DNA from: a virus
DNA: 38,536 nt
Strand: one strand, 5' to 3'
IMG/VR virus record: IMGVR_UViG_3300033153_015607
Coordinates: 1-38,536 of that record
Shown here piece after piece: positions 14,226 to 32,395 of this stretch. How positions within the stretch are numbered: position 1 is the first letter of the stretch; the number at the start of each line of letters is the position of its first letter. Position numbers and translations under genes: made by a program. Under the pieces are notes generated by a model. That model saw only the letters and a list, made by a program, of their open reading frames with translations, was not told the origin of the DNA and did not search any database.

Positions 14226-14243
14226 ATTTAAAATCCTTTTTTT

Positions 14244-14393: not shown

Positions 14394-14404
14394 TTTTATA
14401 CCTC

Positions 14405-14839
14405 CTAAATTGTTACATCTTTGCTATATTTTGCATCTCCAAGAGCAACGCTGGAATTAACTGGAATAGCTGGTGTTGTTCCTCCAGTAAAATCAACTGT
14501 GACAACAATTCGTATATATCTTTTTGCTCCTTCTATGTCTGCATCAACAAATGTGTACTCTGCGTCATTCAAAAGTTCATCTGATTGTATAACATTTCCA
14601 TCTTTGTCATTAAAATCTTCCATGTCCGAGCCGTCAGACTCATCGCCATGTTGCAGTTTAATTTTTACAGATTGTGCAGAAGGTGTTCCGCTTGCATTTC
14701 CAACCGCCAAAAAAATTACACTTGATAAAAACCCCAGTCTATCCAAAACTAAACCATTTGTTACACCTTCTTCCAGGGCTGTAATTGTAGGTGTCAAAGC
14801 AGGTATTATTTTTGTATTATTTAGTAATTCACGTTTCAT
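14405..14839 (-). CDS. Capsid decoration / head fibre-like protein
   Basis: A 144-residue protein rich in predicted strands, located directly after the major capsid gene. 'GVTNGLVLDRLGFLSSVIFLAVGNASGTP' and the end 'RIVVTVDFTGGTTPAIPVNSSVALGDAKYS' are typical of small structural proteins next to capsid genes in contractile-tail phages and of Ig-like decoration proteins. Family naming is uncertain. Confidence 0.65.
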   Translation of the reverse strand: MKRELLNNTKIIPALTPTITALEEGVTNGLVLDRLGFLSSVIFLAVGNASGTPSAQSVKIKLQHGDESDGSDMEDFNDKDGNVIQSDELLNDAEYTFVDADIEGAKRYIRIVVTVDFTGGTTPAIPVNSSVALGDAKYSKDVTI

Positions 14840-14867
14840 TTTTTATATCCTCCATTTTTTGTAATTT

Positions 14868-16085
14868 TTACTTAGATCTTACTTCTCTGTAAACAGTAAA
14901 CGCTTCTGCATGTCTCAACGCAAAGTCATACCAGCTTGTTACTTTTATAGCAGAATATCCCTGTTGCCATAGGTTTAATGTCTGCGTATCGTTTATTTTT
15001 ATAGATGCGTCTTTGCTAACATCTATTGTAAACATATCTTGCTCTCCTATTACAAATTCTGCCCAATCTCCATAGAAAATATCAGTTTTTCCATATATAT
15101 CCGTACCAATTGGTATTTGGTTATATAAATAGAAATTATCTCCAACTAGCTTATTTTTATCCATTTCGGCACGATGTATAAAATTACCATTTGCATCTGT
15201 TAAATTATAGAAAGAAGCCCATAATGCACCATTCATTACAAACCCTAGGTTTGTTTTTGCAACGTTTGTTTTCATTATTGTACCTTTTATTTCAGGTGCC
15301 AGTGTGTTGCTGGGAGCAGCTCCCACATTTCTGGTATTAATTCCAGGAGTGTTAAGAATTCCCTGAGGTGTAAACTCTGTGCCGCTTCCGTACAGGGCAA
15401 CATAGTTAAGTGTTACAGCCATTTCCCGCAATATGTCGTTTCTAATTGCCATATCTGCACTATAACTGTTATTTTTTAACAATTCATCTGTTAGCAACGC
15501 CATGCTTACCTGCTTTTTAGCGTTTAATTTTATGTTGGAAAATTTATGTTTTGTTGGTATAGCATTTCCACCTTCTCCCACAAAATATGACAGAGAACCC
15601 TCAGAATAGACGGGGAGGTTTAAATTTCCAGTTGGCATTGGTTGTCTTTTTGCTCCAGCACTGTAAAGAAATACCATAGGTCTTAACAACTCTATGATTT
15701 CGTTGCTGTATTTTTCTGGTACTAAAAATCCGCCCTCGGACGGGATTGTTGAGTTATTCTTTTGTGTTAGTTCTTTTACAAAACCTGGACAATCTTCTTC
15801 ATATTGCTTTTTTGCTTCACTTGCCATATATTCTGGATCATTTTTACATTTATAAGCAAGTTTTACAATTCTTGAAAATGCAATACCTTTTTCCATTTCT
15901 TGCTTATTATTATCTTTAGCACTTTTTGCTAAAAATATGCTTGCATACTTTCTTTCTGTGTTTTCCACATTTTGTTTAATTTCATTGTTATTTTTTTCAA
16001 GATTAGTTAATTTTTCCTCTAAAGGATTAACAACTTGTTTTACTACTTCTTTTACGTCCTCAAGTAGTTGCTTTTTTTCGTTCAT
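14868..16085 (-). CDS. Major capsid protein, HK97 fold
   Basis: A 405-residue protein. Residues 1-100 form a charged coiled coil that acts as a scaffold (delta) domain and is normally removed by the protease. From about 115 the HK97 family motifs appear: 'STIPSEGGFLVPEKYSNEII', 'PMPTGNLNLPVYSEG' and 'WYDFALRHAEAFTVYREVR' at the end. It is encoded right after the protease with an AGGAGGT-type site. Confidence 0.95.
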   Translation of the reverse strand: MNEKKQLLEDVKEVVKQVVNPLEEKLTNLEKNNNEIKQNVENTERKYASIFLAKSAKDNNKQEMEKGIAFSRIVKLAYKCKNDPEYMASEAKKQYEEDCPGFVKELTQKNNSTIPSEGGFLVPEKYSNEIIELLRPMVFLYSAGAKRQPMPTGNLNLPVYSEGSLSYFVGEGGNAIPTKHKFSNIKLNAKKQVSMALLTDELLKNNSYSADMAIRNDILREMAVTLNYVALYGSGTEFTPQGILNTPGINTRNVGAAPSNTLAPEIKGTIMKTNVAKTNLGFVMNGALWASFYNLTDANGNFIHRAEMDKNKLVGDNFYLYNQIPIGTDIYGKTDIFYGDWAEFVIGEQDMFTIDVSKDASIKINDTQTLNLWQQGYSAIKVTSWYDFALRHAEAFTVYREVRSK

Positions 16086-16129
16086 TTTTTATTACCTCCG
16101 TTTTTTTTTAATAATTTTATTTTAAATTT

Positions 16130-17137
16130 TTAAACAAACAATAACTTTTTTAATTCTTCTTTAAAATTTTTATGCAATTCTTGTTTTTCTTCTTCATCTT
16201 CTTCATGCTCTTCTTTATATCCTTCTTGTAAATCTTTACCAGTAACGAGAGCATTTGGATTACATGGTACAGAAACGAGACTAAATTCAAGCAATTCCTT
16301 TTCTGTTATAATCTGTTTACGCTCTCCATCTTCATTAACTGTTTCCCAATCATTTACAGAAAATCCAACAGATACCGCATTCATATACCCATTTTTGTAT
16401 AAATTGTAAATTGTATCTATCAACGTCGCGTGACTTGAAAAATTTACTCCATCACTGGATAATTCTTCAAGCTTTGGAAATTTTACTTCTGCTATATATC
16501 GCTTATTCTCTTCATCCTGGTAAATTTTAGCAGTTCCAATTGCTGGAATTTTATAATCGTGCATGAATAACACAATTGGGTTTTTATTGTAATTTTCGAA
16601 ATTCCATCCAGAAAATGTTAACAAATCATTGTCGCGGTCTAATGTTTCGTCTGTTATAACAAATTTTATAATTCTGTCATTTACTGTAATACTTACAGGT
16701 TCTACCTGTTTTAGTTGTTTGCTGGACTTATTTTTTAAGAGAACATTCTTTATATCTTCAGGTTTTAAGGGTTCATAATCTAGTTTTTTAAGGTAAACAT
16801 TTACTTTTTTAGAAACAGCAACCTTATCTTCCATGGGAATATTTACCCCTCCTCGAGCCCCTCTTAAAACTGCTTTTATTGCAATTATCGCCCTTGGAAC
16901 AGCTGTTAATTTACCCTCTATAATGTCAGCAAATCCCAATTTGTAAGATGTAATGTTTTCCATCTTATCCTCATCATACCAAAAAAAAGCTTTCTGGTAT
17001 TTTTTCCAGTCAATCTCTTCTTTTCCTTCTTTTGCCCAGCTACGTACTCTTCTTTCTGCTTGTACTGCGTTCCATATGTAATTTTTTTGTGCAAGTGGTA
17101 AATTTGTACTTCCACTTACAGTTTTTTCTATATACAT
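16130..17137 (-). CDS. Prohead protease with N-terminal extension
   Basis: A 335-residue protein. The C-terminal half is an S78-type prohead protease: 'ETLDRDNDLLTFSGWNFENYNKNPIVLFMHDY' holds the catalytic His, 'MNAVSVGFSV' the Ser, and 'EKELLEFSLVSVPCNPNA' the last motif. The N-terminal 130 residues ('YIWNAVQAERRVRSWAKEG', 'SYKLGFADIIEGKLTAVPRAI', 'GARGGVNIP') form a separate domain also found fused to or beside phage proteases; its role is not known. Cleaves scaffold and capsid N-termini. Confidence 0.88.
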   Translation of the reverse strand: MYIEKTVSGSTNLPLAQKNYIWNAVQAERRVRSWAKEGKEEIDWKKYQKAFFWYDEDKMENITSYKLGFADIIEGKLTAVPRAIIAIKAVLRGARGGVNIPMEDKVAVSKKVNVYLKKLDYEPLKPEDIKNVLLKNKSSKQLKQVEPVSITVNDRIIKFVITDETLDRDNDLLTFSGWNFENYNKNPIVLFMHDYKIPAIGTAKIYQDEENKRYIAEVKFPKLEELSSDGVNFSSHATLIDTIYNLYKNGYMNAVSVGFSVNDWETVNEDGERKQIITEKELLEFSLVSVPCNPNALVTGKDLQEGYKEEHEEDEEEKQELHKNFKEELKKLLFV

Positions 17138-17147
17138 ATTTTACCTC

Positions 17148-17402
17148 CTAAATTTCTATATTTTTAATCCACCCATCGTTTACTGCTTCTTCTTGGGTTA
17201 ATTCAACTATATTGTTAATTTCTTCCTGCGTCAATCTGTTTTCTTGATTATTAAAAACTATAAGTGCCCATTTGTTTACTAAAATGTTATATATAATTTC
17301 TGTAAAATATTTTGTTATATTACCTGTACATCCAATTCTGTCAGCTATTTCCTTATTTTTATTTTTAGCTTCACTTTCACTGTCAAATATTAGCAACTTC
17401 AT
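17148..17402 (-). CDS. Small hypothetical protein after adhesin genes
   Basis: An 84-residue protein, start 'MKLLIFDSESEAKNKNKEIADRIGC', end 'TQEEAVNDGWIKN'. The pattern of a leading 'MKLLIFdseseA' helix-strand recalls short proteins encoded after tail fibre genes, which may act as fibre chaperones. There is an apparent GGTGG ribosome site. The function is inferred from place only. Confidence 0.5.
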   Translation of the reverse strand: MKLLIFDSESEAKNKNKEIADRIGCTGNITKYFTEIIYNILVNKWALIVFNNQENRLTQEEINNIVELTQEEAVNDGWIKNIEI

Positions 17403-17413
17403 GTTTACACCAC

Positions 17414-18307
17414 CTATACAATTCCAAAATAATTTACAATATTTTGCTTTATTGCTAAAATTTCATTACTTGCTAACTCTTCTCCATAAATTACAAATTC
17501 TGATATATAACCATCAAAATATCCATTTCCGGCAGCAGGTTTCCCTCCAATGGTAATTTTTGGATTGTTTGAATATTCTATCGGTCCCGAATTGCCGTCT
17601 TCGTCTATATATTCATTATTCAAATTTTTGGAAACTACGGTTTTATACAAGCCTTTTTTGTAACCTGTTACCAGCGTTAGTTCTCCAATTGTTGCTGTTT
17701 CTCCTGCAACAGAATTTGTAAACCAACTGCCACCTTGTTTATACCTAAAAGCGGTTTTAAAGGGAGAAATTGTAAAATTGATATTCCACCCATTTATTCC
17801 ATTTTCTAGGCCAGAATGAGTTCCAATTATTGGAACATTACTCCCAATATTTTCTATGGAAGAAACTGCAAAAACTGTAACAGAATCTGTTCCATTTATT
17901 GTATTAGAAACCAAAATATTGTTATTTTCTTTTATAAACCTCATGGATATTTTACCATTTTTTCTTATAACTGCATTATTTTCAAAAATTTTAGGTTGTT
18001 GGGATAATGTATCTTGATATACATCTGTTGTACTATCACCAGTTTGATTATAAAATTTAGAAATATATCCCTCATTATCTGCACCCATGAAATTTTTAAT
18101 CGCATCTTCGTTAATCTCGCCATATCCATTTATTGTAAAATTACATTCATCCGTATTTATTACTCTCCTTATTCTTACACAATTTCCACTGTAATTATTT
18201 ACCATCCTTCTAAATCCATAAATTCCCAAAGGTGTTTTTGAAGGTACAATTTCTGTTATATTTTCCCTTATCCAATTTTTAGGTTCTTTATATGTAAAAC
18301 TTATCAT
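17414..18307 (-). CDS. Lectin-like (ConA/LamG) virion adhesin
   Basis: A 297-residue protein with a segment 'LGIYGFRRMVNNYSGNCVRIRRV', 'YISKFYNQTGD' and 'QQPKIFENNAVI' in the first 110 residues. It strongly recalls the concanavalin-like domain found in phage adhesins and arabinofuranosidase-B-like proteins ('a-GlRrl-x-x-aYsG-x-aiRvRRs'). A second jelly-roll portion ends with 'YFDGYISEFVIYGEELASNEI'. Carbohydrate binding on the virion surface is the likely role. No catalytic residues can be assigned. Confidence 0.7.
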   Translation of the reverse strand: MISFTYKEPKNWIRENITEIVPSKTPLGIYGFRRMVNNYSGNCVRIRRVINTDECNFTINGYGEINEDAIKNFMGADNEGYISKFYNQTGDSTTDVYQDTLSQQPKIFENNAVIRKNGKISMRFIKENNNILVSNTINGTDSVTVFAVSSIENIGSNVPIIGTHSGLENGINGWNINFTISPFKTAFRYKQGGSWFTNSVAGETATIGELTLVTGYKKGLYKTVVSKNLNNEYIDEDGNSGPIEYSNNPKITIGGKPAAGNGYFDGYISEFVIYGEELASNEILAIKQNIVNYFGIV

Positions 18308-18310
18308 TTT

Positions 18311-19597
18311 CTATATTGTCCTTAATTTGTATAATTTTTCTATATCATTTTCTGACACAATATCGGAGAATAAATTAATTTTCCTTAATTTACCATCTCC
18401 GTATGTTGTTTCTAATTTATTTAAATACAAATCTTCACCTGTAACAAAATTCCATGTTACAGATGGTTGCGTTAGAACTAAAATATTGTCTATATATATT
18501 TTAACACTATTTGCTGTTGCATTACATACAATTATTATGTGTACATAATTATTAAGTTCAAATACATTATTTACAATAACTGTAGGAGATGTTGAATTAA
18601 GGTATATATATAAGTTAGTTCCATTTTGTGCTATAAGCCATCCATTTCCATAATTTGCCTGTCCATACGCTACGATTGGTTTCGTTGCTGCATTTATTGC
18701 TTTTGCTTTACAATAAAGTTCTATTGTAAAACTTCCATTTCCAAATTCGAAATCCGTGTTATTACTTATTTGTAAATATTTGTCATCAAAAAAATCTATT
18801 GAATTATCTGTAGTATCTAGCAAAATTTGATTAGATAGTATATTTTGTACAGCATTGTTATTATTAACTTGGTCATAAATCTTTGTTATGTTAAATTGTT
18901 CCAATGCAGCTATATCTTTAACAAATTTGGAATTTTTAAACCATCCGCTTCCTATTGTTCCCACAGAATTGTTAGAAATTCCCACAATAAATCTTGCTGT
19001 TGTTGTTGTTGCAGGTGCAACTAAGTAATTATTTACAAGTGTTCTAAAATAATCTTTTGTATACGTCGCTACAGCAGAAGTTGTAATTTTTGTAGAATTA
19101 TTGTACCAATCTATATATACTTTTGCTGTAATATCTCCCAATATTTTACAATCTACTGCTAATGATATAATGTCTCCTTCTGTTGCTGCAATATCTTGAT
19201 ATAGGAATGAAATGGCAATACTACCACTATTTGTAATTTCAATCTTTTGTGTATTATCTATTGAAAAAATAGTTGTATGCCCTGTTCCCTGTACGTCTAT
19301 GTAACCATCTGTTACTCCATCCAAATTACTATCTTCTACCATTTCTGGATTTGTTATTATATTTGTATAAGTTTTTTCAAAATTACTTAAATAACTATTA
19401 TTCAAATAATTACCAGAAAATGAAATATTTGTTTCTTCTAAATCGCTTCTTAAAATTCTAATAGGATAATTATTGTAAAATTGGTTTTGTTTGTTAATAG
19501 CTAAAGAAACAACACATGAAGAAACAATTTGTTTCACTAAATCTATATACCAATTATTTGTATTTTTCCAATTGTTTGGACTAATAAAGCTACTCAT
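18311..19597 (-). CDS. LamG-domain virion adhesin
   Basis: A 428-residue protein. An N-terminal domain repeats the layout of the downstream adhesin ('YNNYPIRILRSDLEETNISFSG', 'ITKIYDQVNNNNAV'). The C-terminal 150 residues are a LamG/ConA-like jelly roll ('FEFGNGSFTIELYCKAKA', 'YVHIIIVCNATANSVKIYID'). Between them lies a carbohydrate-binding-module-like section ('VEDSNLDGVTDGY', 'IAISFLYQDIAATEGD'). Its ATG overlaps the upstream TGA (ATGA). A receptor- or glycan-binding role is inferred. Confidence 0.7.
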   Translation of the reverse strand: MSSFISPNNWKNTNNWYIDLVKQIVSSCVVSLAINKQNQFYNNYPIRILRSDLEETNISFSGNYLNNSYLSNFEKTYTNIITNPEMVEDSNLDGVTDGYIDVQGTGHTTIFSIDNTQKIEITNSGSIAISFLYQDIAATEGDIISLAVDCKILGDITAKVYIDWYNNSTKITTSAVATYTKDYFRTLVNNYLVAPATTTTARFIVGISNNSVGTIGSGWFKNSKFVKDIAALEQFNITKIYDQVNNNNAVQNILSNQILLDTTDNSIDFFDDKYLQISNNTDFEFGNGSFTIELYCKAKAINAATKPIVAYGQANYGNGWLIAQNGTNLYIYLNSTSPTVIVNNVFELNNYVHIIIVCNATANSVKIYIDNILVLTQPSVTWNFVTGEDLYLNKLETTYGDGKLRKINLFSDIVSENDIEKLYKLRTI

Positions 19598-20640
19598 GTT
19601 CCTACTCGTCCTCTCAAATCTGTATAATATATTCCAAGTATTTCATTTAATGGTACAACTTTGGCTTTTACAGAATTTGCATATGTATCTCTGCTATTAA
19701 ATGTAACCGTTCCGAGACCTTTAAATTGGTCTAGTTTAAATTTGGATTTAATCTCATTTAATTCCAAATCTGCAAAATCTATAGCTTCAGATGCTTGCTG
19801 ATATTGGCGTATGCCCACAATGCAAGAACACTGTCTCCTAAAATCTGGGCCTTTAAAATAATGATAGTTAATATGGTAATTATTGGTTATTTCTGTTAAT
19901 TGCCAAACTCCTCCAATATTTTCATTAAATGCCAATCTTCCTGAACCTGTTGTAAGCACTTTGTGACCACTCGGCGGAGTTCCTTTCCTTAAAACGGGTG
20001 TACTACCATTCATATATATAATTTGGAAATCTAATACATCAGTTGCATATTTTTGTACAACATGTTGTATTCTTCCAATATAGTAATTTCCTTCTTCTAT
20101 AGCAAATCTTGCATGTTCTTCTAAGCTTCCATCACCTATTACAAATTCTGTTAATTCTCCTCCATTTTTCCATCTTATGGTATCGCTTAACATTCTAAAA
20201 AAGCTCTGGTAATCAATTCCAATTGGTTGCCTAAGTTCCACAACTGTTAATTCTTTCAAATTCACAGAATCCCAATAAATGGCAGAAACAACAGTATCAT
20301 TTCCAACTTCTGTTATTATATCAAATTCCTGGTTTGGCAAAATTGACTGATATATTGATCTTAACCCAGTTCCTGTAAAAACTATCCAGTGCAGGCCTTC
20401 ATATGTTTCGGCCGATGGAACTATAATACTTAATTGTGAACTAATAACATGTTTTATACCATATCTCCATATTATGAAATTACTTCCAGTTGGTGTAAGG
20501 GTAAAAGTTCTTGTGCTGTTATTATAAGCCATTTCACTCGCTTCAATGTCAACTTTTCCAGTTGTTGGATTAATTGGAAATCCTCTCAAAATATGTTGTG
20601 CTGCTAGGCTACTAAATCCTAATATATCATTTATAGGCAT
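19594..20640 (-). CDS. Putative virion fibre protein 1
   Basis: A 348-residue protein starting 'MPINDILGFSSLAAQHILRG', without a recognised family. It is rich in strands and aromatic residues, with 'RQPIGIDYQSFFRMLSDTIRW' near the middle. Three cysteines, two in CSC, lie in 'QCSCIVGIRQY'. It is the middle member of a run of five surface-protein genes, overlapped by the LamG gene. A structural appendage is likely. Confidence 0.5.
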   Translation of the reverse strand: MPINDILGFSSLAAQHILRGFPINPTTGKVDIEASEMAYNNSTRTFTLTPTGSNFIIWRYGIKHVISSQLSIIVPSAETYEGLHWIVFTGTGLRSIYQSILPNQEFDIITEVGNDTVVSAIYWDSVNLKELTVVELRQPIGIDYQSFFRMLSDTIRWKNGGELTEFVIGDGSLEEHARFAIEEGNYYIGRIQHVVQKYATDVLDFQIIYMNGSTPVLRKGTPPSGHKVLTTGSGRLAFNENIGGVWQLTEITNNYHINYHYFKGPDFRRQCSCIVGIRQYQQASEAIDFADLELNEIKSKFKLDQFKGLGTVTFNSRDTYANSVKAKVVPLNEILGIYYTDLRGRVGT

Positions 20641-20660
20641 ATTTTACCACCTTTGTATTT

Positions 20661-21629
20661 TTATAACTGTCCATATTTATTGCAATTTACAATTTTTGCC
20701 TCTCCTGCTAAAATTGCTGCAGCTAAATCTGTTACATCTTCTCGAAATGTAATTGTGCATAGATTTATAGCTCCTTCTATCCCCTCAGGTTCGTAAAGCT
20801 TATTGGTAACATATCGTGACAAATCATCTATAGCATCAGTTAGTGTCGAATACAATTTTTGCCCATATCCCACAAAAATGGTAGCAGTGGAATTATATGG
20901 ATAAAATTTCATAATTTGTGTTGTATATTTGTTAGGAGGTACTGTTTGCAACGTTCCGCTTAAGTCATCCCACTGTGTCGGGTTCAAATCTGATGTTACT
21001 GCTTGGGGAATTATTCCACCTGTGGCAGAAATATACACAGGCACAAAGTAAACAGGGCTAAAAATAGGCGTTGTAGGCGTGTGTGGTGACAACGGTTCGT
21101 TTATAGCATTTGCACCGTGTCTGACAGATACACCCAGTGTTTTGTCAAGTTTTAGGTTATTACCATTTTCTGTTACAATATTTCCAGAAATTTTTAAAAC
21201 TTGCCCTATAGAATTTCCTAATATTACCTCCAATGGGTTTTCCCAACAAAATATTGGTAAATATAGGGCAGAAGCTATATTTATTCCATCTAAAGTAAAC
21301 ACTCGTCCGATTCTAAAAGTAGTAGTAAGCTGTAGCGGGCTAAAATCTGCATTTTGTATAACAACATTTCCAGAGCTGTCAATTCCTATAAAAATACTTG
21401 GTAAACTATTCCATACAGGTGTTACAGCTGTTTTACTTGTCCAATTTACCAATGTTTGTGTTACATTACCAGGATTTGTGTATTTATCAACTATATACCC
21501 ATATCCTGCAGAAATATCAAACTTTGTTGGGTCACCTCCATTTACGGTAATAAGTCCACCTTCGACTATTCCTGTACTTAATATGTAATTTTTTTCAACT
21601 ATAGATACTAATGTATCTTGAATTGGCAT
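20661..21629 (-). CDS. Putative virion fibre protein 2
   Basis: A 322-residue protein starting 'MPIQDTLVSIVEKNYILSTG'. The early part 'GGLITVNGGDPTKFDISAGYGYIVD' is a pattern often seen in fibre-shaft or baseplate-fibre proteins, where 'G-x-i-x-v-n-g-x-d-p-t-k-f-d-i-x-aG' begins a beta-rich shaft. It ends with helical 'DLAAAILAGEAKIVNC'. Probably part of the same appendage as the next gene. Confidence 0.55.
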   Translation of the reverse strand: MPIQDTLVSIVEKNYILSTGIVEGGLITVNGGDPTKFDISAGYGYIVDKYTNPGNVTQTLVNWTSKTAVTPVWNSLPSIFIGIDSSGNVVIQNADFSPLQLTTTFRIGRVFTLDGINIASALYLPIFCWENPLEVILGNSIGQVLKISGNIVTENGNNLKLDKTLGVSVRHGANAINEPLSPHTPTTPIFSPVYFVPVYISATGGIIPQAVTSDLNPTQWDDLSGTLQTVPPNKYTTQIMKFYPYNSTATIFVGYGQKLYSTLTDAIDDLSRYVTNKLYEPEGIEGAINLCTITFREDVTDLAAAILAGEAKIVNCNKYGQL

Positions 21630-21641
21630 TATATGTCACTC

Positions 21642-22781
21642 CTAAATCCAAAATATGAAACTAAATGTTTCTTCGACTTCGGTTGCAATATAAAAGGAAA
21701 AGTTTCTAAATCTTCCAGAATCTGGACTAGAAAAACGCTGGCTACGCAACAGCGGTATAGAATCGCTTTGTGGCGGATCTCCAACTACACCTGTAACATT
21801 ATAATAATATTTGCTCTCAGTTGTGGGATTATTTGGAATAATTTCAAATAATTTGGTATTGTATGGAACATCTATTTTAAACATCTTGTTTACATCACCT
21901 GATGTAATTATTTGTTGCCCTATTTGCATGTCTGTAACAATATCTTTGTTTACATAATTTATACTATCTTCTCCAGAATTGTAAGCAAAAGGTGCTGCAT
22001 CCACAATACGTTGCACAGGCACAAGATTAGGGTCTATAGTGCTACTCATTGCTTCTGTTATGCTGCTATCTGTGTCCTTTATGCTTGTTAAAAATCTCTT
22101 AAAATCGTAAATTATTGTATATTCTGTTCCTGCAATTACAGAAGTTCCAATATCTGTAAATGTTATGGTGTCTGCTGAGTTAGATAATATTTTAGTTATG
22201 TAAGTTTTACCAGAAATTACAAAAGTTATATATGCTAAAGAAAGAGCATTTACATCTACTGCCAAATTTGTATCTGTAAGGGTTGTATTGCTTCCTCCTG
22301 TTGCAGTTCCAGTTATGTTTCCAGTTTTTGTTATATTCTTAAAGTAATTAGTCCAATCTGCCGCTGTTTGTGCAACTCCACCAACTTTTGTCAAATTTAC
22401 GTTTGAGATAGGAGTTTTTATTTGGTAAAGATTTCCTGAAACTACAGTTGCTCCACCTGCTAAGGAAGAAAATGTAATTGTATCCGAAGTATTGGATATT
22501 ACCTTAGCAATGTAACTTATTCCAGAAATTTCTATACTTATAGTTGCATTAGCCCAAATATCCGTTTCCCAGGATTTTGCAGTATCTACAAGAGTTGTAT
22601 TGCTTCCTCCTGTTGCAGTTCCAGTATCTGCATTAAATTCCAGGGAATTTTGGAGAGCCATGTAAATATCTGTAAGTAAATCCGCTTCGTTTTTGATTTC
22701 CTCGTTCGAGTTTATTATGTCTCCAGTTCGTGGCGTTATTAAGTTTTTATCGAATATTTTATAATTACTATTAAGTGCCAT
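21642..22781 (-). CDS. Modular virion surface protein with duplicated TGGSNTTL unit
   Basis: About 379 residues from the ATG at 22781, which follows AAGGAGGAA in the portal 3' end; the ORF extends further upstream but that part overlaps the portal. Two related modules are seen: 'TGTATGGSNTTLVDTAKSW' near residue 60 and 'TGTATGGSNTTLTDTNLAV' near residue 150, each followed by an I-x-Y-I-x-K-I-x-S-N-(T/S)-x-D-T-I-T-F stretch. This 'g-t-a-t-g-g-s-x-t-t-l-x-D' unit is widespread in phage surface proteins. Confidence 0.6.
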   Translation of the reverse strand: MALNSNYKIFDKNLITPRTGDIINSNEEIKNEADLLTDIYMALQNSLEFNADTGTATGGSNTTLVDTAKSWETDIWANATISIEISGISYIAKVISNTSDTITFSSLAGGATVVSGNLYQIKTPISNVNLTKVGGVAQTAADWTNYFKNITKTGNITGTATGGSNTTLTDTNLAVDVNALSLAYITFVISGKTYITKILSNSADTITFTDIGTSVIAGTEYTIIYDFKRFLTSIKDTDSSITEAMSSTIDPNLVPVQRIVDAAPFAYNSGEDSINYVNKDIVTDMQIGQQIITSGDVNKMFKIDVPYNTKLFEIIPNNPTTESKYYYNVTGVVGDPPQSDSIPLLRSQRFSSPDSGRFRNFSFYIATEVEETFSFIFWI

Positions 22782-22791
22782 ATTATTTAAT

Positions 22792-24753
22792 TTATTCCTC
22801 CTTAACAAGTAAAACACATCTGCAGTTTACAAATTCTTCCACTGATCCGAATGTGTCTCCGGGATATTTTAGTCCATTTGAGAAAAGTTTACCATTTTGT
22901 ATAATTTGCCCATCTAGTGCTGCGTGACTATCTCTTACTCTTTCGTCACGACTTGTTAACCACTGTACATATTCTATTTCTGCTGCTTTATAAGTTTCGA
23001 ATACGCCTCCTTGCGTTGCATTATGCGTTTCCGTTCTTGCAATTGTTTTTGCTCTTCCTTTTCCAATATCTGTTATTTTATTACTTATATTATCAGCTAA
23101 GGTTCTTATTGACAATCCTTCATCTAAATATTTTTGTACTTCTTTCCCTATCATTTTTTGCGTCTCTTCGTTTATGTTTTTTGCTTGTATATATGCATAT
23201 TTTTCCCAATACTCATTTATGGTATTTTCTACAAAATCTGGTTGTATATTAAAATTATAAATGTTAATGCTTTCATCAATACCATTTTTTGAAGAATTTA
23301 CAATAAAAGGTAATAATATCTTTTGTAATTCTTCATCTTCAACTGTTTGTAAAAATATTGAATCTAATATAATTTGTGGTAAATTATCTTTTCTGCTTTT
23401 TTTAGCTTTAGTTGCATATAATTCTAACAAGTTTTTACTTGTTCTAGCTGCTTGTTCCTCAAAAAACTTATTCATGGAAATTTCTAGTCCTTTTTCGAGT
23501 TTTCTGGCAGCATTATCGAAATTTTTCCATATTACATATTTTTCATTTTCATTCATTTTTTTTTTAATTATACTTTTATTTCCATCAGATGCAGATACTT
23601 CATATACATTTATTGGAATATGATATACATCTCCGTCTTTTATTTGTGTATATCCGTTTGCTATTCTCCATTCATTTTTTGTTAACGCTCCGTTTGCAAA
23701 TCCATCATTGGAAATTTTTAGGTTAAATTCCTTATCTTCGGGAATTATGTTTTTATGTTCTATGTATATATCTTTGTCAGCGATTAGTTGATTATTGAAT
23801 ACATCTTGTGTCATGCTTAAACGGTAATTTAATACATTTCTTGCATATAATGTATATGCTGCGTCTATTGTTGCTCTGTTAGAATTTTCCACAATACCCA
23901 TAATTTCGGGAGGAATGTTAAAATTTTGAATAGCAACATCTCGTATAAATTTTCTAGAAGCTATAAAATCCATTTCTTTGCTGGTTTCTTTTACCATTTG
24001 TACCTTTGCATCCCAAGGTAAAATTCTTGCTTTATATGCATTTAATAGTCCCTTTGACTTTTTATTCCATTCAAGTTCTAATCTCTTTATGTCGCCGCTT
24101 TGTGCACCAGGGGCCTGGATAATTATAGGAGGTACTGCATCGTTATAAAAAAACTTTTTTGAATATTTTGCCATGTACTCATCTGTTTCAATCTCATCAC
24201 CTATTTGTTGCACCTGCCCGACTCCTCTGTTGTAAGGGCTGGAAATATTTGGGTCAACAAAATATACCATATCTTGGTAATCAACCCTAAATTCTTCTCC
24301 ACCATTTTCGGGGCAAATAATATAGTAATTTCTTCCATTACTGGGAGTATCATAAACCCAGCTTGGAGGAACTACCCATATTTCCTCAATTTTTCCTTTT
24401 TCGTCTCTTTCTAAAACCCAAAATGCTTCTCCATTTATTAGGAGGTGTACCTCTTTTATGTAATTTATGTTAGTCCATGTCATCCAAGGTAAAGGATTAG
24501 GATTTTTTAGTAATTTGTTAAAAATTGTATCTTCTAGAATATTATTGTCTTTATCTTTTACAATCCATTCCACAGCTGCAATATCCTGGGCTATTCTCCT
24601 AACAGGATTCATTCTTGGATTTTTATGGTATAGTATCTCCCAACTTTTAGGATTATTTTCTGGTGGATTGTTCCAAATGTTTAATAGTTTGCTATGTATG
24701 TAATTATCTACTTTATTATTAAATTTTTTTTTAATATTAGAAAACAATCCCAT
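22792..24753 (-). CDS. Portal protein fused to SPP1 gp7-like morphogenesis domain
   Basis: A 653-residue fusion. Residues about 1-380 form the portal: 'NPRMNPVRRIAQDIAAVEW', 'NGEAFWVLERDEKG', 'SPYNRGVGQVQQIGDEIETDEY' and 'NSNRATIDAAYTLYARNVLNYRL'. Residues about 480-653 form the Mu gpF/SPP1 gp7 domain: 'GKGRAKTIARTETHNATQGG', 'YVQWLTSRDERVRDSHAALDG' and 'FVNCRCVLLV'. The portal ring is the DNA gate; gp7-like parts enter the capsid or aid ejection. Such fusions are known. Confidence 0.93.
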   Translation of the reverse strand: MGLFSNIKKKFNNKVDNYIHSKLLNIWNNPPENNPKSWEILYHKNPRMNPVRRIAQDIAAVEWIVKDKDNNILEDTIFNKLLKNPNPLPWMTWTNINYIKEVHLLINGEAFWVLERDEKGKIEEIWVVPPSWVYDTPSNGRNYYIICPENGGEEFRVDYQDMVYFVDPNISSPYNRGVGQVQQIGDEIETDEYMAKYSKKFFYNDAVPPIIIQAPGAQSGDIKRLELEWNKKSKGLLNAYKARILPWDAKVQMVKETSKEMDFIASRKFIRDVAIQNFNIPPEIMGIVENSNRATIDAAYTLYARNVLNYRLSMTQDVFNNQLIADKDIYIEHKNIIPEDKEFNLKISNDGFANGALTKNEWRIANGYTQIKDGDVYHIPINVYEVSASDGNKSIIKKKMNENEKYVIWKNFDNAARKLEKGLEISMNKFFEEQAARTSKNLLELYATKAKKSRKDNLPQIILDSIFLQTVEDEELQKILLPFIVNSSKNGIDESINIYNFNIQPDFVENTINEYWEKYAYIQAKNINEETQKMIGKEVQKYLDEGLSIRTLADNISNKITDIGKGRAKTIARTETHNATQGGVFETYKAAEIEYVQWLTSRDERVRDSHAALDGQIIQNGKLFSNGLKYPGDTFGSVEEFVNCRCVLLVKEE

Positions 24754-24782: not shown

Positions 24783-24908
24783 ATAAACTAATCGTGTCAA
24801 TAAACAAAAAGAATAATATATAAAAAATAATAATATATAAATTTGAAGTTTTGCCACGATTAGTTTATGTATATATTATATACCTTATATGTCATAAACT
24901 TCAAATTT
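24783..24908. promoter_or_regulatory. Two overlapping inverted repeats between TerL and portal
   Basis: TAAACTAATCGTG (24784-24796) pairs with 24855-24867. AAATTTGAAGTTT (24839-24851) pairs with 24896-24908, the last codons of the terminase gene. The two stems interleave, so only one can form at a time. In the minus-strand RNA this could be a switch, an attenuator or a terminase/pac recognition site. A TATAAT lies at the downstream edge, but no convincing -35 box was found. Confidence 0.5.
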
Positions 24909-26135
24909 TCTTCTAATCATGTCGCAACCAAGTGCATACCTCACCGCGTCAATTCCATGATTATTCTTATCTTCCAATTTATTCTTAAGATTCCCGAATC
25001 TGTCAACTTCATAATCTATATCTTCAAATTCTTTAGCAACAAAAGGTGTTCTTTTAGGGTCTATTATAATTTCGTCCAAATCGTCCAACCATTTTTCTCC
25101 AAATTCTACAGATCCTGGTCCTTTCTTTGCAGCAACTATATTTATGCCGTATTGTTTAATTTCGTCAATACTTTTAGGTTCTGCCGAATCTGCCAATATT
25201 TGTATATCATTATATTTTCTTGAAATTATCTTTTGTGCTGCTAATCTGTTGCTCAATTTTGTTTCATAAATTTCATCAAATATGTATATTTTCCTTTTTT
25301 TTACATCATAGTGTAATCTTACAAAAGCAAAAGGGTCTACTCCATACCCCCAGTCAATTCCTTGCCTTACATTATCAAACATTTCTATTTCTTTTTTACT
25401 TATTTCCCTAAATTTAACATTAGTAAAAGGCGTTATTCCAGAACCAATAGGTTCTCCCATATAAATCCAATTATACTTATTAATGTTTGTTTTTTTAATT
25501 TCTTCAGCTCTTTCTATAAATTCCCTAGAAACGTAAGGATTGTCTAAGTACGTACTGTGATGTACATAACAATTTTTGGGTTTTAATACAGAATTATATA
25601 TTCTGTTAACTCTGTGTGACTTTTTTCTAGGAGGATTATATGTACAAAAAATTGAATATAATACATTTTTGTCAAGGTTACCCCTCAAAATTGAGTCAAC
25701 AATAATTTGCTCATCTTCTTCTGTAAATTCTGTTAACTCTTCTAACCATAAAATCCCAATTTTTTTATTCGATGTTTTTATCGATTTTATCTTCTCTGGC
25801 TCATCCGCACCACGAAACAGAATGCGGCACTTTGTAGGTAAATAAGTTATCTCTAATGGATTTTTTTTACATTTCCAATAAAGATTTACACCTAAGTAAT
25901 CTATTGCCCATTTAAGCTGCTCGAAACAAGATGTTTCTAGTGTATTAGCAACCTTTCGCATAGCAACAGCATTTACATTATATTGCATTATATCAAAAAT
26001 TATACGAATACTCACATGAGTAGACTTGCTTGAATTTCTTCCACCTTTTAGGATTTTATACAAATATTTATCAGAATTAATCCAGAAGTTGGTAAATGCT
26101 GGTAAAACTTTTTCTGACATTTTTACTTGTATCAT
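24885..26135 (-). CDS. terL: Terminase large subunit
   Basis: A 416-residue packaging motor of the PBSX/Terminase_3 type. The Walker A-like P-loop is GGRNSSKS at 31-38, and the Walker B with catalytic Glu is ILWLEEL at about 128-134. The nuclease domain shows 'GIDWGYGVDPFAF' near 265, 'ILADSAEPKSI' near 315 and 'NNHGIDAVRYALG' near 392, the three acidic clusters of the RNase H-like fold. The first ATG at 26135 is kept, although ATG 26120 is possible. Confidence 0.95.
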   Translation of the reverse strand: MIQVKMSEKVLPAFTNFWINSDKYLYKILKGGRNSSKSTHVSIRIIFDIMQYNVNAVAMRKVANTLETSCFEQLKWAIDYLGVNLYWKCKKNPLEITYLPTKCRILFRGADEPEKIKSIKTSNKKIGILWLEELTEFTEEDEQIIVDSILRGNLDKNVLYSIFCTYNPPRKKSHRVNRIYNSVLKPKNCYVHHSTYLDNPYVSREFIERAEEIKKTNINKYNWIYMGEPIGSGITPFTNVKFREISKKEIEMFDNVRQGIDWGYGVDPFAFVRLHYDVKKRKIYIFDEIYETKLSNRLAAQKIISRKYNDIQILADSAEPKSIDEIKQYGINIVAAKKGPGSVEFGEKWLDDLDEIIIDPKRTPFVAKEFEDIDYEVDRFGNLKNKLEDKNNHGIDAVRYALGCDMIRRKFEVYDI

Positions 26136-26137
26136 AA

Positions 26138-26542
26138 CTAATTACTATAATCTTCCTTTTTTTTATTATTAATATATTTTTTGTTATTATCTGTAATATC
26201 ATCTACAATTTTTACAGGTATAAAATTATCTGCAAATTCAATCTTATTTCTCCATCTTTGTGTAGTTCTTTCCAGGTACCAAGCCGCTGCTTGCCAGCTA
26301 CTATTTGCTGCTTTTTGCAAAAGCGCAACATTGCGTATTTCCGCTTCTGCCCTAGCTTTTTTTATAGACTTACAGAACTTACCGTATATACTATCTTCAT
26401 CTTTTTCACCCTTTTTCAACCAATAATAGTAAGTCTTTTCTGCTATTCCTAAAGCTTTACATGCAACAACTGCAAAGTTACCTGCAGCTATGTATTTATA
26501 TGCTTCTGCTATAAGTTCATCTGTCAATTTTGTTATTCTCAA
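26138..26542 (-). CDS. terS: Terminase small subunit
   Basis: A 134-residue protein with an N-terminal helix-turn-helix ('FAVVACKALGIAEKTYYYWLKKGEKD') that recognises phage DNA. The central part 'KARAEAEIRNVALLQKAA' and 'WQAAAWYLERTTQRWRNK' is typical of Firmicutes TerS proteins. It lies 2 bases upstream of TerL. The start appears to be TTG with GGA five bases upstream, as no ATG is available at the N-terminus. Confidence 0.9.
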   Translation of the reverse strand: MRITKLTDELIAEAYKYIAAGNFAVVACKALGIAEKTYYYWLKKGEKDEDSIYGKFCKSIKKARAEAEIRNVALLQKAANSSWQAAAWYLERTTQRWRNKIEFADNFIPVKIVDDITDNNKKYINNKKKEDYSN

Positions 26543-27492: not shown

Positions 27493-28275
27493 TTAACCTT
27501 TATCAATTCTGTAATTTAATTCCATATTTTTCTTTATTTCTATAATATTTCCTTTACACATTTCTACTATTCTGCTACCTATTCCCTCGTCTATTTCAAC
27601 TAACCTGTCAACAAAAAGTTCACAAGAAATTATTATTGGTAATTTGTGTAAGTATCGGTAATTTATTATTTCAAACATAATGTTCAAATCTGCTTCAGTC
27701 AGTTTACCTTTGTACAAATCATCTATATACAAAATGTTGCAGGTTTTGTAAGGTGTAATTATTTTGTTGTAATTTATATCGTCTAAAACTGTTCGCTTAA
27801 TTTTTGTAATATCTTCCCTGTATTGCATATATCTTACACATATGTCTTTTTTAAACAATTCGTTACATATCGCAAAACATAAATGTGTTTTCCCGCTTCC
27901 AACTTGTCCCAGAAATGCTATTCCTTTACTTTTACTGTTGTTAAAGTTTTCAATGTACTTTGTAGCTTTATCCTTCATTTTTTTTAAAATTGTACTTTTA
28001 TTTGTACAAAAATTTTTAAAAGTTTTGTCCTTGGAAATTTCTGTAAATCCTGACACTTCCCAAATTTGTTTAAATTCTCTAGCAACTTTACATTTACACT
28101 TAGCGTACCTAGCAACATCAAAAACATGGTCTTTTATACAAATATAACCAGTGTCATTACAATGCCTGCATTTGATTTTCAAGTTTTTACCAGACTGACA
28201 ATCCTTCGTAGTTTTTTCTATATTTGTCAAAAACTGACTTTTCATTCTCGCTATTATCTCTTCTATCCGCGTCAT
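27493..28275 (-). CDS. DnaC-like helicase loader ATPase
   Basis: About 260 residues from ATG 28275, with AAGGGGAT eight bases upstream. An N-terminal cysteine cluster (CRHC near residue 36 and CKC near 60) may bind zinc. The AAA+ core has Walker A GQVGSGKTH at about 123-131 and Walker B 'CNILYIDDLYKG' near 185. It loads host replicative helicase at the origin. The 5' end overlaps the initiator gene by 89 bases in another frame. Confidence 0.9.
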   Translation of the reverse strand: MTRIEEIIARMKSQFLTNIEKTTKDCQSGKNLKIKCRHCNDTGYICIKDHVFDVARYAKCKCKVAREFKQIWEVSGFTEISKDKTFKNFCTNKSTILKKMKDKATKYIENFNNSKSKGIAFLGQVGSGKTHLCFAICNELFKKDICVRYMQYREDITKIKRTVLDDINYNKIITPYKTCNILYIDDLYKGKLTEADLNIMFEIINYRYLHKLPIIISCELFVDRLVEIDEGIGSRIVEMCKGNIIEIKKNMELNYRIDKG

Positions 28276-29350
28276 TTTCAAAATATCCCCTTTGCTGTAT
28301 TTTATTTACAAGATTGCTATTATACTTACTTTGCTCCTTACTCTTTCTAAATTTTGCATCAAGTTCCTTTACATCTGCAACGCTGCGTACATTGTTGTTA
28401 TCCCAATTACGTAAAATTGCTGCTATATAATTCCATGTCCTTACATTATTTTCCATAGCCTTTTTTAGGGCTTCAACAACAACATCATCTCCTAGCTTGT
28501 CAACAAAATGTAGCATCTGTTTACCTACGTAGCTCCCTAGTTTCGCTATGTTGCTTTCAAAAAATTGAAAAGATTTGTAAAATTTATATTTCTTGTCTAA
28601 TTTATCAACAACAACATCAACATTACGATTACTGGTAAATTTTTCCTCGGTATCTATATAGCAAACATTACTTTGATGTTGTTGTTTTTTATTATTATTA
28701 TTATTAATATTTATATTATTATTATTTTTATTATTATATTTATTATTTATTATATTATTATTTATATTATTTATATTATATTCTAATACTTTACTAAGTA
28801 AGTTATTATTAGAATTACTAGTAACATCATGCTTACTTGTTAATATATTACTATCATTCCTAACCCTTTCCAGTACTGGTTCCGGAATGGGTTCGGACTC
28901 ATTCCCGGAATCATTACCGTACTCGTTCCGGTAGTCACTCCCGTACTCACTCCCGTAGTCGTTCCGTTCCTTGTCACGTAACGGTTCCTGGACATCATTA
29001 ACTTTATTTACATTTTCATCCAATGGCTCAGGAATTTTACTTTTTTGCTTCTTGTTTATACTTTGCCATTTTTTCCAATTCAAAATTTTGTAATATTTAA
29101 CAGAATTAACTTCATAGAATATTATATTCATATACTTACATATCTTGTTAATTCCATTAATAATTTCCTTCAATGAAATGTCATCATATGGAAAAATTGT
29201 AGATCTTAGGTAAGCAGGATCTGCTTCTCCTTTCCCTTCATCGTCAGCATTGGAAAATATACCCATGAAAAGTAAACGTTCTAACATATTTAACTTAGCA
29301 ACATTATTATTTTTCCAAAAACTGGGGTCTATTGTTCTTTTACGTGCCAT
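28187..29350 (-). CDS. DnaD-like replication initiator (replisome organiser)
   Basis: 387 residues from ATG 29350 ('MARKRTIDPSFWKNN'), with AGGAGGT eight bases upstream; the open frame extends further, but that part overlaps the preceding gene. The N-terminal 120 residues are a winged-helix domain seen in phage initiators ('LERLLFMGIFSNADDEGKGEADPAYLRSTIFPYDD'). A linker holds 12-bp-periodic 'YGSEYGSDYRNEYGND' and an Asn-rich tract of about 45 residues. The C-terminal part ('YVGKQMLHFVDKLGDDVVVEALKKAMEN', 'WNYIAAILRNWDNNNVRS') is a DnaD/DnaB_2 domain. Confidence 0.88.
   Translation of the reverse strand: MARKRTIDPSFWKNNNVAKLNMLERLLFMGIFSNADDEGKGEADPAYLRSTIFPYDDISLKEIINGINKICKYMNIIFYEVNSVKYYKILNWKKWQSINKKQKSKIPEPLDENVNKVNDVQEPLRDKERNDYGSEYGSDYRNEYGNDSGNESEPIPEPVLERVRNDSNILTSKHDVTSNSNNNLLSKVLEYNINNINNNIINNKYNNKNNNNININNNNNKKQQHQSNVCYIDTEEKFTSNRNVDVVVDKLDKKYKFYKSFQFFESNIAKLGSYVGKQMLHFVDKLGDDVVVEALKKAMENNVRTWNYIAAILRNWDNNNVRSVADVKELDAKFRKSKEQSKYNSNLVNKIQQRGYFENDADRRDNSENEKSVFDKYRKNYEGLSVW
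28687..28966. other. Candidate replication origin in the initiator gene
   Basis: Six tandem 12-bp units of the form GNANTCNNTNCS occupy 28895-28966 (GGACTCATTCCC, GGAATCATTACC, GTACTCGTTCCG, GTAGTCACTCCC, GTACTCACTCCC, GTAGTCGTTCCG). They are GC-rich islands in an AT-rich genome. About 110 bases away, 28687-28785 is an almost pure A/T triplet tract, a natural unwinding element. Iterons plus an AT-rich tract inside the initiator gene match origins such as the lambda one in gene O. Confidence 0.65.
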
Positions 29351-29372
29351 TTTTTTTACCTCCTTATTTTTT

Positions 29373-30077
29373 TTAATTTTGTTGAATTTGTGCACATATG
29401 TTATTATACTCCTTTTTTGTAACATCTGTGCTTTTTTCAAACCCGAATTTTTTAAGTACATCTTTTATCAACTTTGTGTTACCATTTGCTAATGCAAACA
29501 TACGTTTAGCTTGTGCATCACTAATTGTATCACTTGTTATATTATTACTTTGTTTACTTTCTTCAACATTAATGTCAATATCTTCTAAATCCTGCGTAAA
29601 TACTTCGGACAGGCTTGCTAATGTTAATGTAGCATCTATTTGTGCCCTTTTCCTAGCCATCTTTAAGCAAGTATTTGCAACAGAATAAGAACATTTGTCT
29701 ACATATTTTTTTTCTTTTGTATTGCATTGCCCTATACCTTCTGTTATTTTTTTTCCATTTTTTACAACTATACATTTTACAATAAAGGAAAAAAACCCTT
29801 TATTGTAATCTTCTGTATTTTTTATTATGTTAAATTCTGTCTCTACTCCTAATAACATCAATATTTTTTCAGACCCAGGTTTTAACAGTGTTGCTTTTTT
29901 TTCCCATGTTCCTTTTTTTTCATTTTTTATTAATATTATCATGTAATCTTTATCAATAATAAGTTTTCTTTTTACAATATTATGGAAATCCTGGATTCTT
30001 TTTAGAAGAATTTCTATATCTTGGATATCAATATTTTCTAGAATAGATTTTTCTGCCTGGATGTTAATATTTTCCAT
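29373..30077 (-). CDS. Putative single-strand annealing / recombination protein
   Basis: About 234 residues from ATG 30077, which lies nine bases after AAGGAG; the ATG nine bases earlier touches that site. Landmarks are 'KKATLLKPGSEKILMLLGVETEFNI', 'GIGQCNTKEKKY', 'NTCLKMARKRAQIDATLTLASLSEVFTQDLED' and a C-terminal 'SDAQAKRMFALANGN' helical tail. This is a widespread phage and plasmid family, related by layout to Rad52/Sak-type annealing proteins. The annealing role is inferred from family and context. Confidence 0.65.
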   Translation of the reverse strand: MENINIQAEKSILENIDIQDIEILLKRIQDFHNIVKRKLIIDKDYMIILIKNEKKGTWEKKATLLKPGSEKILMLLGVETEFNIIKNTEDYNKGFFSFIVKCIVVKNGKKITEGIGQCNTKEKKYVDKCSYSVANTCLKMARKRAQIDATLTLASLSEVFTQDLEDIDINVEESKQSNNITSDTISDAQAKRMFALANGNTKLIKDVLKKFGFEKSTDVTKKEYNNICAQIQQN

Positions 30078-30136
30078 ATTTTTCATCTCCTTTTTTTTTA
30101 ATTATATTTCTTTTTATTATATTTTTCAAGTGTTTT

Positions 30137-30664
30137 TCAAGAAAATTTTATAATAAATTTATCCTCCTGTTCTATTGCTGTTACTCCATTTACAATTTCT
30201 CCCATATCATTAATAACTTTTCCATCTTTTACAGTTATTGTCTTTTTTAATTTTTCCCAATTTGGTGTTTTTTTAATTTTTATAAGTTCATTATAACCAT
30301 TTTCTAGCCATTCTAACAGTTTATTATCATCTCTTACAAATTTTGGATTTTGCTTTTTGAGTACTAAATCTGCTGCTGGCAATTTAAGTATTTCTTGTGT
30401 TTTTGTTTTTCTCGTTTTTGTGTTTTTAAAATATTCAAGCAAAAGAGATTTCAAATAAGAGGTATTATTCTCAAGTTTTTCCATAATGCTTTGTTTTTTT
30501 GCTTCATACTCATTTATTACTTCATTACATATATTTACATATCTTTCAGTTTCTTCTTTTTTTTCTTTAATTTTATTTAATGCCCACTCTGCTTTTTTAT
30601 CACTATCAATTGTAAACGTTTCGTTTATATCATCATCTAGTTTATTTACATTTTCTTCTATCAT
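30137..30664 (-). CDS. Gp157/Gam-like nuclease-inhibitor family protein
   Basis: A 175-residue protein. A coiled-coil N-terminal half ('KKAEWALNKIKEKKEETERYVNICNEVINEYEAKKQS' split over 22-60) precedes the segment 'KTRKTKTQEILKLPAADLVLKKQNPKF' and the end 'TPNWEKLKKTITVKDG'. This matches Siphovirus Gp157 and, more distantly, Mu Gam, which protect DNA ends from host nucleases. Its start overlaps the upstream stop (ATGA). The neighbouring annealing protein supports a role in recombination. Confidence 0.75.
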   Translation of the reverse strand: MIEENVNKLDDDINETFTIDSDKKAEWALNKIKEKKEETERYVNICNEVINEYEAKKQSIMEKLENNTSYLKSLLLEYFKNTKTRKTKTQEILKLPAADLVLKKQNPKFVRDDNKLLEWLENGYNELIKIKKTPNWEKLKKTITVKDGKVINDMGEIVNGVTAIEQEDKFIIKFS

Positions 30665-30888
30665 TTCAAAAAATCACCTCCTTTATTTTCTTCAATATGA
30701 TATAAAAGCAATATAAAGTTGCTAATACTTTTGTTTAATTTAGCAAATCCTTCCTTTTGTATATTTGCTATATTATTGTTATATTCATGCATACTTGCCA
30801 TAAAATCCCTTCTCAAATTTAGGAAATCATTGTCAACAGTTCGCATAAATATTTCAACCAATTTTGAAATATCTACATATTTTACCAT
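30661..30888 (-). CDS. Small hypothetical protein coupled to the GGDEF gene
   Basis: A 75-residue, mainly helical protein ('MVKYVDISKLVEIFMRTVDNDFL...'), family not recognised. Its ATG overlaps the TAA of the diguanylate cyclase gene (TAATG) and its TGA overlaps the next start (ATGA). Thus it is translated together with both. The link with the cyclase could be functional, for example as a partner or c-di-GMP target, but this is only position-based. Confidence 0.5.
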   Translation of the reverse strand: MVKYVDISKLVEIFMRTVDNDFLNLRRDFMASMHEYNNNIANIQKEGFAKLNKSISNFILLLYHIEENKGGDFLK

Positions 30889-31415
30889 TATTTACCTCCT
30901 CGTATAACTGTTTTATTTCGACCGGTTCTTTTTGCCTCATATAGTGCCGCATCTGCTTGTTGCACTAATGTATATGCTGCTCCTATACTAACCGTTGCTT
31001 TTATTACCTTTTTATCAATATAAAATGTAACTTTTTCTATTTTATTTCTTATTCTCTCACAAATTATATTTGCTTCCTTTAAATTACAATCATCACAAAT
31101 TATTACAAACTCTTCTCCTCCAAATCTGAAGGCAACGTCATGTTTGCGTATACTGCTTTTTATTATTTTTGCTACTTTTTTCAAAACTTTATCACCAATT
31201 ATATGTCCAAATGTATCATTAATTTTTTTGAAATAATCTATATCTATTACAGCAATTAACGTATATGGATTATTTTCCCTTCTATTGAGTTGTTTGAGAG
31301 CATATACTTTATTATACAAGCCAGTAAACATATCAATCTTCAATTTGTTTCTAAGTCTTTCATTTTGTTTTTTTAATTTTATTACTTTGTTTCTAAGTTC
31401 TTCTAAATTTTCCAT
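30888..31415 (-). CDS. Stand-alone GGDEF diguanylate cyclase
   Basis: A 175-residue protein that is almost only a GGDEF domain after a short coiled coil (residues 1-25). The active site is GGEEF at 99-103, with the metal site 'VIDIDYFKKIND' near 56-67 and 'DMFTGLYN' at 28-35. The inhibitory I-site RKHD at 90-93 lies exactly five residues upstream of GGEEF. 'SIGAA' and 'ADAALYEAKRTGRN' complete the fold. It should make c-di-GMP from two GTP in the cytoplasm. No sensor or membrane segment is present. Rare as phage cargo. Confidence 0.93.
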   Translation of the reverse strand: MENLEELRNKVIKLKKQNERLRNKLKIDMFTGLYNKVYALKQLNRRENNPYTLIAVIDIDYFKKINDTFGHIIGDKVLKKVAKIIKSSIRKHDVAFRFGGEEFVIICDDCNLKEANIICERIRNKIEKVTFYIDKKVIKATVSIGAAYTLVQQADAALYEAKRTGRNKTVIRGGK

Positions 31416-31524: not shown

Positions 31525-31547
31525 AAGAAGGCTTTTAAAGCCTTCTT
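31525..31547 (-). terminator. Hairpin at the end of the 31535-31933 gene
   Basis: AAGAAGGCTTT and AAAGCCTTCTT form an 11-bp perfect palindrome with a one-base centre. It contains the stop codon of the upstream coiled-coil gene. The minus-strand tail is only ACTTTCTTTG, so termination would be partial; the plus-strand tail is T-rich. It separates the regulatory genes from the GGDEF gene. A TATAAT at 31472-31477 lies downstream, but its -35 box is poor. Confidence 0.5.
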
Positions 31548-32197: not shown

Positions 32198-32395
32198 TTA
32201 CAAAAATATGTTTTTAATTTCTTCAGGGTTTAAATTGAATATACTTGCAATTATTGAAATTTCTTCCATTTTGAACTGATATAGCCCGTTCTCCTTATTT
32301 CTATAAGATTTTTCAGAAATTCCTAACAATTCAGCCATTTCCTTTATACTCCTGTTCTGGTAAATTCTCCAACCTTTCAATTTGTAATTCACCAA
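32198..32395 (-). CDS. XRE-family (Cro/CI-type) regulator
   Basis: A 65-residue protein with one helix-turn-helix of the HTH_3 type: 'GWRIYQNRSIKEMAELLGISEKSYRNKENG' covers about residues 8-37, with recognition helix SEKSYRNKE. No multimerisation domain follows, so it is Cro- or SinR-like in size. TTG at 32395 fits GGAGGTGG at the right distance; a GTG follows directly. A consensus promoter with an inverted repeat across it lies just upstream, typical of self-repression. Confidence 0.8.
   Translation of the reverse strand: MVNYKLKGWRIYQNRSIKEMAELLGISEKSYRNKENGLYQFKMEEISIIASIFNLNPEEIKNIFL

Follow-up and report, generated by a model that had tools for sequence, protein, structure and literature searches.

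Cyclic di-GMP (c-di-GMP) commonly moves bacteria from a motile to a sessile state and alters their surface polysaccharides. Among the GGDEF diguanylate cyclases, an inhibitory RxxD site (I-site) five residues before the GG[DE]EF motif is typical, albeit not universal. Phage-borne diguanylate cyclases are already known, and the gene described here adds one whose site appears, judging by its residues, more intact than that of the YuA type. Among the open papers surveyed, published support for the steering of host c-di-GMP by phages consists of annotation and one correlative lysogen study. Bordetella phage LK3 carries a cyclase, and its lysogens form more biofilm, a correlative observation (PMC8471281); their motility is raised too (PMC8471281), which a simple rise in c-di-GMP would not predict.

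One of the described systems that our gene resembles is gp44 of Pseudomonas phage YuA (156 aa), likewise a short phage protein with GGDEF as its only domain; its gene, too, is an early-region gene and adjoins one for host takeover (anti-restriction). The gp44 gene is also present in other yuaviruses and in Bordetella vojvodinaviruses, in tens of phage records. The gp44 protein has SGDEF, lacks RxxD at the place of the I-site and has a degraded C-terminus, whereas GGEEF and I-site are intact in the cyclase that we analysed. Host group and gene neighbours differ as well, and the two proteins share 31% identity over 96 residues; this distance, together with the presence of GGEEF and RKHD, rules out membership of the gp44 family.

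Other tailed-phage cyclases resemble the gene in part. SP15_150 of Bacillus phage SP-15 (183 aa, 36% identical) is also a stand-alone cyclase with intact GGEEF and RxxD, but it has a hydrophobic, probably membrane N-terminus in place of a soluble helix, and its gene belongs to a cluster of carbohydrate genes in a phage of 222 kb. A phage REC-GGDEF protein from IMG/VR contig 3300013126_000015 (L154) equally retains GGEEF and RxxD; it differs in its N-terminal receiver domain and in its setting, a large phage contig of 102 kb. Its gene, a response-regulator-like cyclase at 5611-6561, adjoins genes for a primase and a DnaB-like replicative helicase. Further tailed-phage diguanylate cyclases are gp350 of Bacillus phage G, the protein of a second phage contig (L150) and that of a Cariaco Basin virus, the last described as Mu-like with a transposase (PMC7785012); our protein is shorter than gp350 and that of L150, which also have other N-terminal regions and other genomic places. 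The L150 gene (4921-6474) encodes a membrane-type cyclase of 517 aa in a 52.8-kb contig and lies between portal/head-morphogenesis and major head genes, resembling inserted cargo. GGDEF ORFs inside the head-tail block also occur in related metagenomic phages (L171, L165-L168, L176, L177), that of L171 following the major tail protein gene. The diguanylate cyclases of SXT/R391 integrative elements (PMC2791158) are mobile-element-borne too, but belong to conjugative elements rather than phages. None of the other phage cyclases inspected occupies the recombination-operon position that we describe below.

We use "the window" for the whole stretch analysed here, a linear and incomplete virus record from IMG/VR that spans 38,536 bases. 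Its cyclase gene (30888..31415, minus strand) encodes 175 aa, comprising a helix (residues 2-26) and a GGDEF domain (27-168) with RKHD at 90-93 and GGEEF at 99-103. The Pfam profile PF00990 matches residues 27-168 over profile positions 3-161 of 161 (E 5.5e-39), its 134 bits passing the curated cut-off of 23.8 across the domain, and the NCBIfam profile TIGR00254 matches with E 6.3e-42 (143 bits; cut-off 37.4). A chance origin of these matches is out of the question. GGDEF is the sole domain recognised in the protein. The start of the gene is fixed by a TGA in the same frame, two codons ahead of the ATG (TGA AAA GTA ATG), and by a strong ribosome-binding site, AGGAG, so that a longer protein with a sensor domain is excluded. 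A preliminary description had called the product a bare GGDEF domain with GGEEF and RxxD at canonical spacing; the sole domain and both motifs agree with this, but the zipper-like helix at the N-terminus makes "bare" too strong a word.

The inhibitory RKHD, the spacer VAFRF and the active-site GGEEF (codons 90-103; 31107..31148, minus strand) were delimited by alignment with PleD and with 32 relatives. RKHD-VAFRF-GGEEF aligns with RAID-LPCRY-GGEEF of PleD, the spacer being five residues in length; FKKINDTFGHIIGDKVL aligns with FKKINDTFGHDIGDEVL and, in a further block, ADAALYEAKRTGRN aligns with ADEGVYQAKASGRN. Across the 32 relatives R90 and D93 are nearly invariant and GGEEF is invariant. 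All catalytic and ligand residues that are invariant in the approximately 31-32 aligned domains are kept, namely D58, D60, F62, K63, N66, D67, G70, H71, G74 and D75, as well as G99, G100, E101, E102, F103, D155, Y159, K162 and R166. The earlier claim of an intact catalytic site and I-site is thus borne out by the alignment with PleD.

These residues also bear on the expected product. In Hypr GGDEF enzymes, which make cGAMP, Ser or Thr replaces the guanine-binding Asp (Ser348 in GacA; PMC6456294), and Asp75 at the guanine-reading position rules out this identity here. With Asp75 kept where Hypr enzymes carry Ser, knowledge of the family points to c-di-GMP as the product to be expected. The mCpol enzyme of Panoptes, OptS, is without a GGDEF motif and is linked to the effector OptE (PMC12657218); identity with such a defence enzyme is ruled out by the intact GGEEF and by the lack of any PADLOC match for the cyclase and its three small neighbours. 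By its residues, then, the protein classes as a canonical GTP-type GGDEF cyclase, neither a Hypr nor an mCpol enzyme, and our confidence that it would be enzymatically active is fairly high.

An unusual feature is the short beta-to-alpha loop that leads into the last helix. Measured from SIG to the AD of that helix, it comprises 9 residues, as against 15-27 in 122 relatives. Folding or activity of the cyclase may therefore differ, though the shortening deletes no known catalytic residue. A loop so uniquely short among relatives could mean that catalysis has been lost and that a GGDEF-fold protein now acts as a c-di-GMP-binding regulator or as a partner of the recombination module. The short GGDEF family of YuA, with SGDEF and without an I-site, shows that phages do keep altered GGDEF forms. 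We nevertheless consider a loss of catalysis distinctly unlikely, given that the GGEEF motif and every residue for metal, phosphate and guanine are intact and that the GGDEF residues are usually the first to go in degenerate sensors.

The fold itself is present in the AlphaFold model (mean pLDDT 95.8, pTM 0.87), in which DSSP assigns residues 2-26 to a single helix. The nearest structures found by Foldseek are c-di-GMP-bound GGDEF domains and GGDEF constructs with a coiled coil or a GCN4 zipper, among them 3ign (E 1.9e-18), 6ttr (the coiled-coil GGDEF of DgcB, TM 0.91) and 3i5c (GCN4-WspR). The helix (codons 1-26; 31338..31415, minus strand) is zipper-like, with L4, L7, V11, L14, N18, L21 and L25 at a/d spacing; the heptad pattern gives a permutation p of 0.03, by itself a modest sequence signal. 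Its register is common to 108 relatives, in which, counting back from the first Asp of the GGDEF domain, position -7 is hydrophobic in 85% and position -14 in 61%. Heptads, shared register and fold matches together indicate that the helix is probably a dimerisation stalk. The likeness to 3i5c and 6ttr lies in a coiled-coil stalk joined straight to one GGDEF domain; the former is a laboratory fusion and the latter an excised domain of a cellular protein, whereas the phage cyclase is a whole natural protein. From stalk and I-site we infer a constitutive dimer limited by product binding at the I-site.

Turning to the genomic setting, a Cro/CI-type HTH regulator (32198..32395) lies upstream of the cyclase on the same minus strand, behind a promoter-like site at 32457-32429 that matches 12/12 positions, and is followed by two small coiled-coil-rich ORFs (31962-32168 and 31535-31933). 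These two ORFs encode lysine/glutamate-rich, probably coiled-coil proteins without homologues, each after a near-identical AAAAAAAAGGAGGT leader. Further tandem short ORFs at 32464-32817 (54 and 62 aa) are mutually similar, have no family match and look like ribbon-helix-helix regulators. Downstream, the final A of the cyclase TAA also serves as the A of the ATG (TAATG, at 30888) that opens a 75-aa ORF (30661..30888) whose Shine-Dalgarno sequence lies inside the last cyclase codons. A gene for a Mu Gam-like DNA end-protection protein (30137..30664; PF07352 1.8e-25, phrog_2205 2.3e-34) overlaps this ORF by 4 nt (ATGA). There follow, all on the minus strand, genes for a phrog_10048 protein (29373..30086), assigned by position to the place that an annealing protein holds in other phages, for a DnaD-like replication initiation protein with profile matches (28187..29461) and for a DnaC-like helicase loader with a PHROGs match (27493..28281). 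The order then runs through nuclease, regulator, terminase, portal, head, sheath, baseplate and amidase; the large and small terminase subunits (24885..26542) and the portal, major head, contractile tail sheath, baseplate and amidase genes (377..24753) establish the phage identity. This order places the cyclase among the early genes of a phage with a contractile tail, and its reported location between regulators and recombination genes stands, with the HTH gene on one side and Gam and the phrog_10048 protein on the other.

The same arrangement answers the suspicion that a piece of host chromosome had entered a viral contig or that the assembly is chimaeric. Suspicion could be aroused by the sequence relatives of the cyclase, the best of which are bacterial, and by the best "phage" protein match, MT836848.1 (L144), which was deposited as a bacteriophage and turned out to be bacterial DNA by its gene content (nitrogenase-like reductases, an ABC transporter, D-Tyr deacylase). 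Yet the gene continues on one strand through overlaps of 1 nt and 4 nt to gam and on into approximately 30 kb of continuous phage genes; an HTH phage regulator precedes it, and its GC content of 27.5% is similar to that of neighbouring genes. The cyclase gene is phage-borne, enclosed in an unbroken series of phage genes. A host origin, raised in the preliminary description, is accordingly rejected on the strength of the overlapping and surrounding phage genes, and we hold a chimaera or host fragment to be extremely improbable.

Searches yielded no close homologue of the cyclase; among bacterial proteins, the best are approximately 44% identical. For the terminase, relatives from Bacillota genomes and phages reach 57-61% identity, none of them close, and GGDEF is absent from all 14 phage records with related terminases, many of which are fragments; with that reservation, the cyclase looks like an isolated acquisition. 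The phage rows fall at scattered places in a quick, poorly resolved tree of 135 GGDEF domains: its well-supported branches force a minimum of 3 changes, and parsimony forces 29, a pattern in keeping with repeated acquisition of cyclases by phages. The nearest protein in this tree is the REC-GGDEF protein of L154 (SH-aLRT 92), a join that is not firm. Small stand-alone GGDEF genes of Gastranaerophilales sit among chromosomal genes. Scans of viral contigs recovered no relatives of Gam or of the phrog_10048 protein.

At the edge of the phage genome, seven or more ORFs with ankyrin repeats of approximately 33 aa form an array of duplicated cassettes (32917-38079, all on the minus strand). Several are each equipped with a promoter-like site of consensus sequence, TTGACA-17-TATAAT (at 38139, 34352, 34217 and 33668), and several share a similar terminator, GACTAGC...GCTAGTC followed by a T run. 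One ORF (33736-34152) matches the PADLOC candidate-defence model PDC-M72A (6.7e-30), maybe through its ankyrin repeats only. A direct repeat of 232 nt, 97% identical, occupies 34396-34627 and 38305-38536; since the second copy stops exactly at the contig end, the assembly probably broke within the array, which would continue beyond it. The ankyrin genes and GC content had suggested a spirochaete as host, Brachyspira or another, but this is unsupported, the best match in 393 genomes reaching 45%.

The transcriptional context refines the early placement given in the preliminary description. Regulators do lie upstream, but a terminator-like hairpin (31525..31547, minus strand; 10 pairs, a 3-nt loop and a weak T tract) parts the cyclase from them, in a region where 25 such hairpin sites occur against 2.7 expected; the gene is therefore more likely to head its own unit than to be internal to theirs. 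A promoter scan found no good promoter in the gap before the cyclase (31525-31415), and a site TTGAAA-17-TATAAT matching 11/12 positions lies between gam and the phrog_10048 gene (30101..30129, minus strand); promoter scans in this AT-rich region perform near chance level. As the latter site precedes the phrog_10048 gene, cyclase, 75-aa ORF and gam may form a three-gene unit, an assignment that we make tentatively. The TAATG coupling to a small protein holds as described, and this protein has no match in Pfam, PHROGs, NCBIfam, PADLOC or the phage records. A role as dedicated partner of the cyclase is unsupported: it has no homologue, and in other Firmicutes phages unrelated small ORFs directly precede gam and overlap it likewise, so that gam, and not the cyclase, may account for the coupling. 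No c-di-GMP riboswitch was found in the window.

A place in the early region beside Gam, an anti-nuclease function, and the similar adjacency of YuA gp44 to an anti-restriction gene could suggest counter-defence, in which phage c-di-GMP feeds, competes with or decoys the cyclic-nucleotide immunity of the host. We rate this as highly improbable: the absence of a PADLOC match for the cyclase and its three small neighbours and the canonical GTP-type GGDEF, of neither Hypr nor mCpol kind, leave the earlier proposal of a link to cyclic-dinucleotide defence unsupported, no cyclic-nucleotide sponge or nuclease was recognised, and the known signals of CBASS or Panoptes are mostly other nucleotides (PMC12657218). 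It is likewise improbable, if somewhat less so, that some phages include an unregulated, feedback-capped pulse of c-di-GMP in their early programme of host takeover and DNA protection, where it would aid genome protection or replication or blunt nucleotide-based defence instead of only altering the biofilm of lysogens.

A stronger contender, which we still consider unlikely, is that the gene is lysogeny cargo, by which a prophage raises c-di-GMP in the lysogen for biofilm and sessility and not for lytic growth. The hyperbiofilm lysogens of the cyclase-bearing phage LK3, correlative as they are (PMC8471281), point in this direction, as does the place of the cyclase in its own unit behind a terminator. 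Set against this are its chaining to gam, an early lytic function, and the annotated proteins of the window, a linear and incomplete record, among which no integrase or lysogeny module was recognised.

On balance we favour, with moderate confidence, a working sensorless cyclase that is zipper-dimerised, capped by its I-site and made early, and that most likely raises host c-di-GMP. The zipper-like helix would pair two GGDEF domains, which would then condense two GTP to c-di-GMP without an input signal, while the I-site would cap the output through product inhibition. Encoded at the head of a unit shared with the 75-aa protein and Gam, the cyclase would be made early in infection; host c-di-GMP would most likely rise, and the infected cell or lysogen would be pushed towards a sessile, surface-altered state. 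A change in motility or biofilm through phage-made c-di-GMP, as proposed earlier, is plausible, but our confidence in any single host effect is low. Infection of E. coli by phage N4 requires c-di-GMP (PMC8669472), and phage-made c-di-GMP could therefore affect the susceptibility of neighbours or superinfection.

Altogether, a soluble protein of 175 aa that possesses all catalytic residues and no sensor offers an easy test case. If it is active, phages would carry ready-made, signal-independent c-di-GMP synthases among their early genes.
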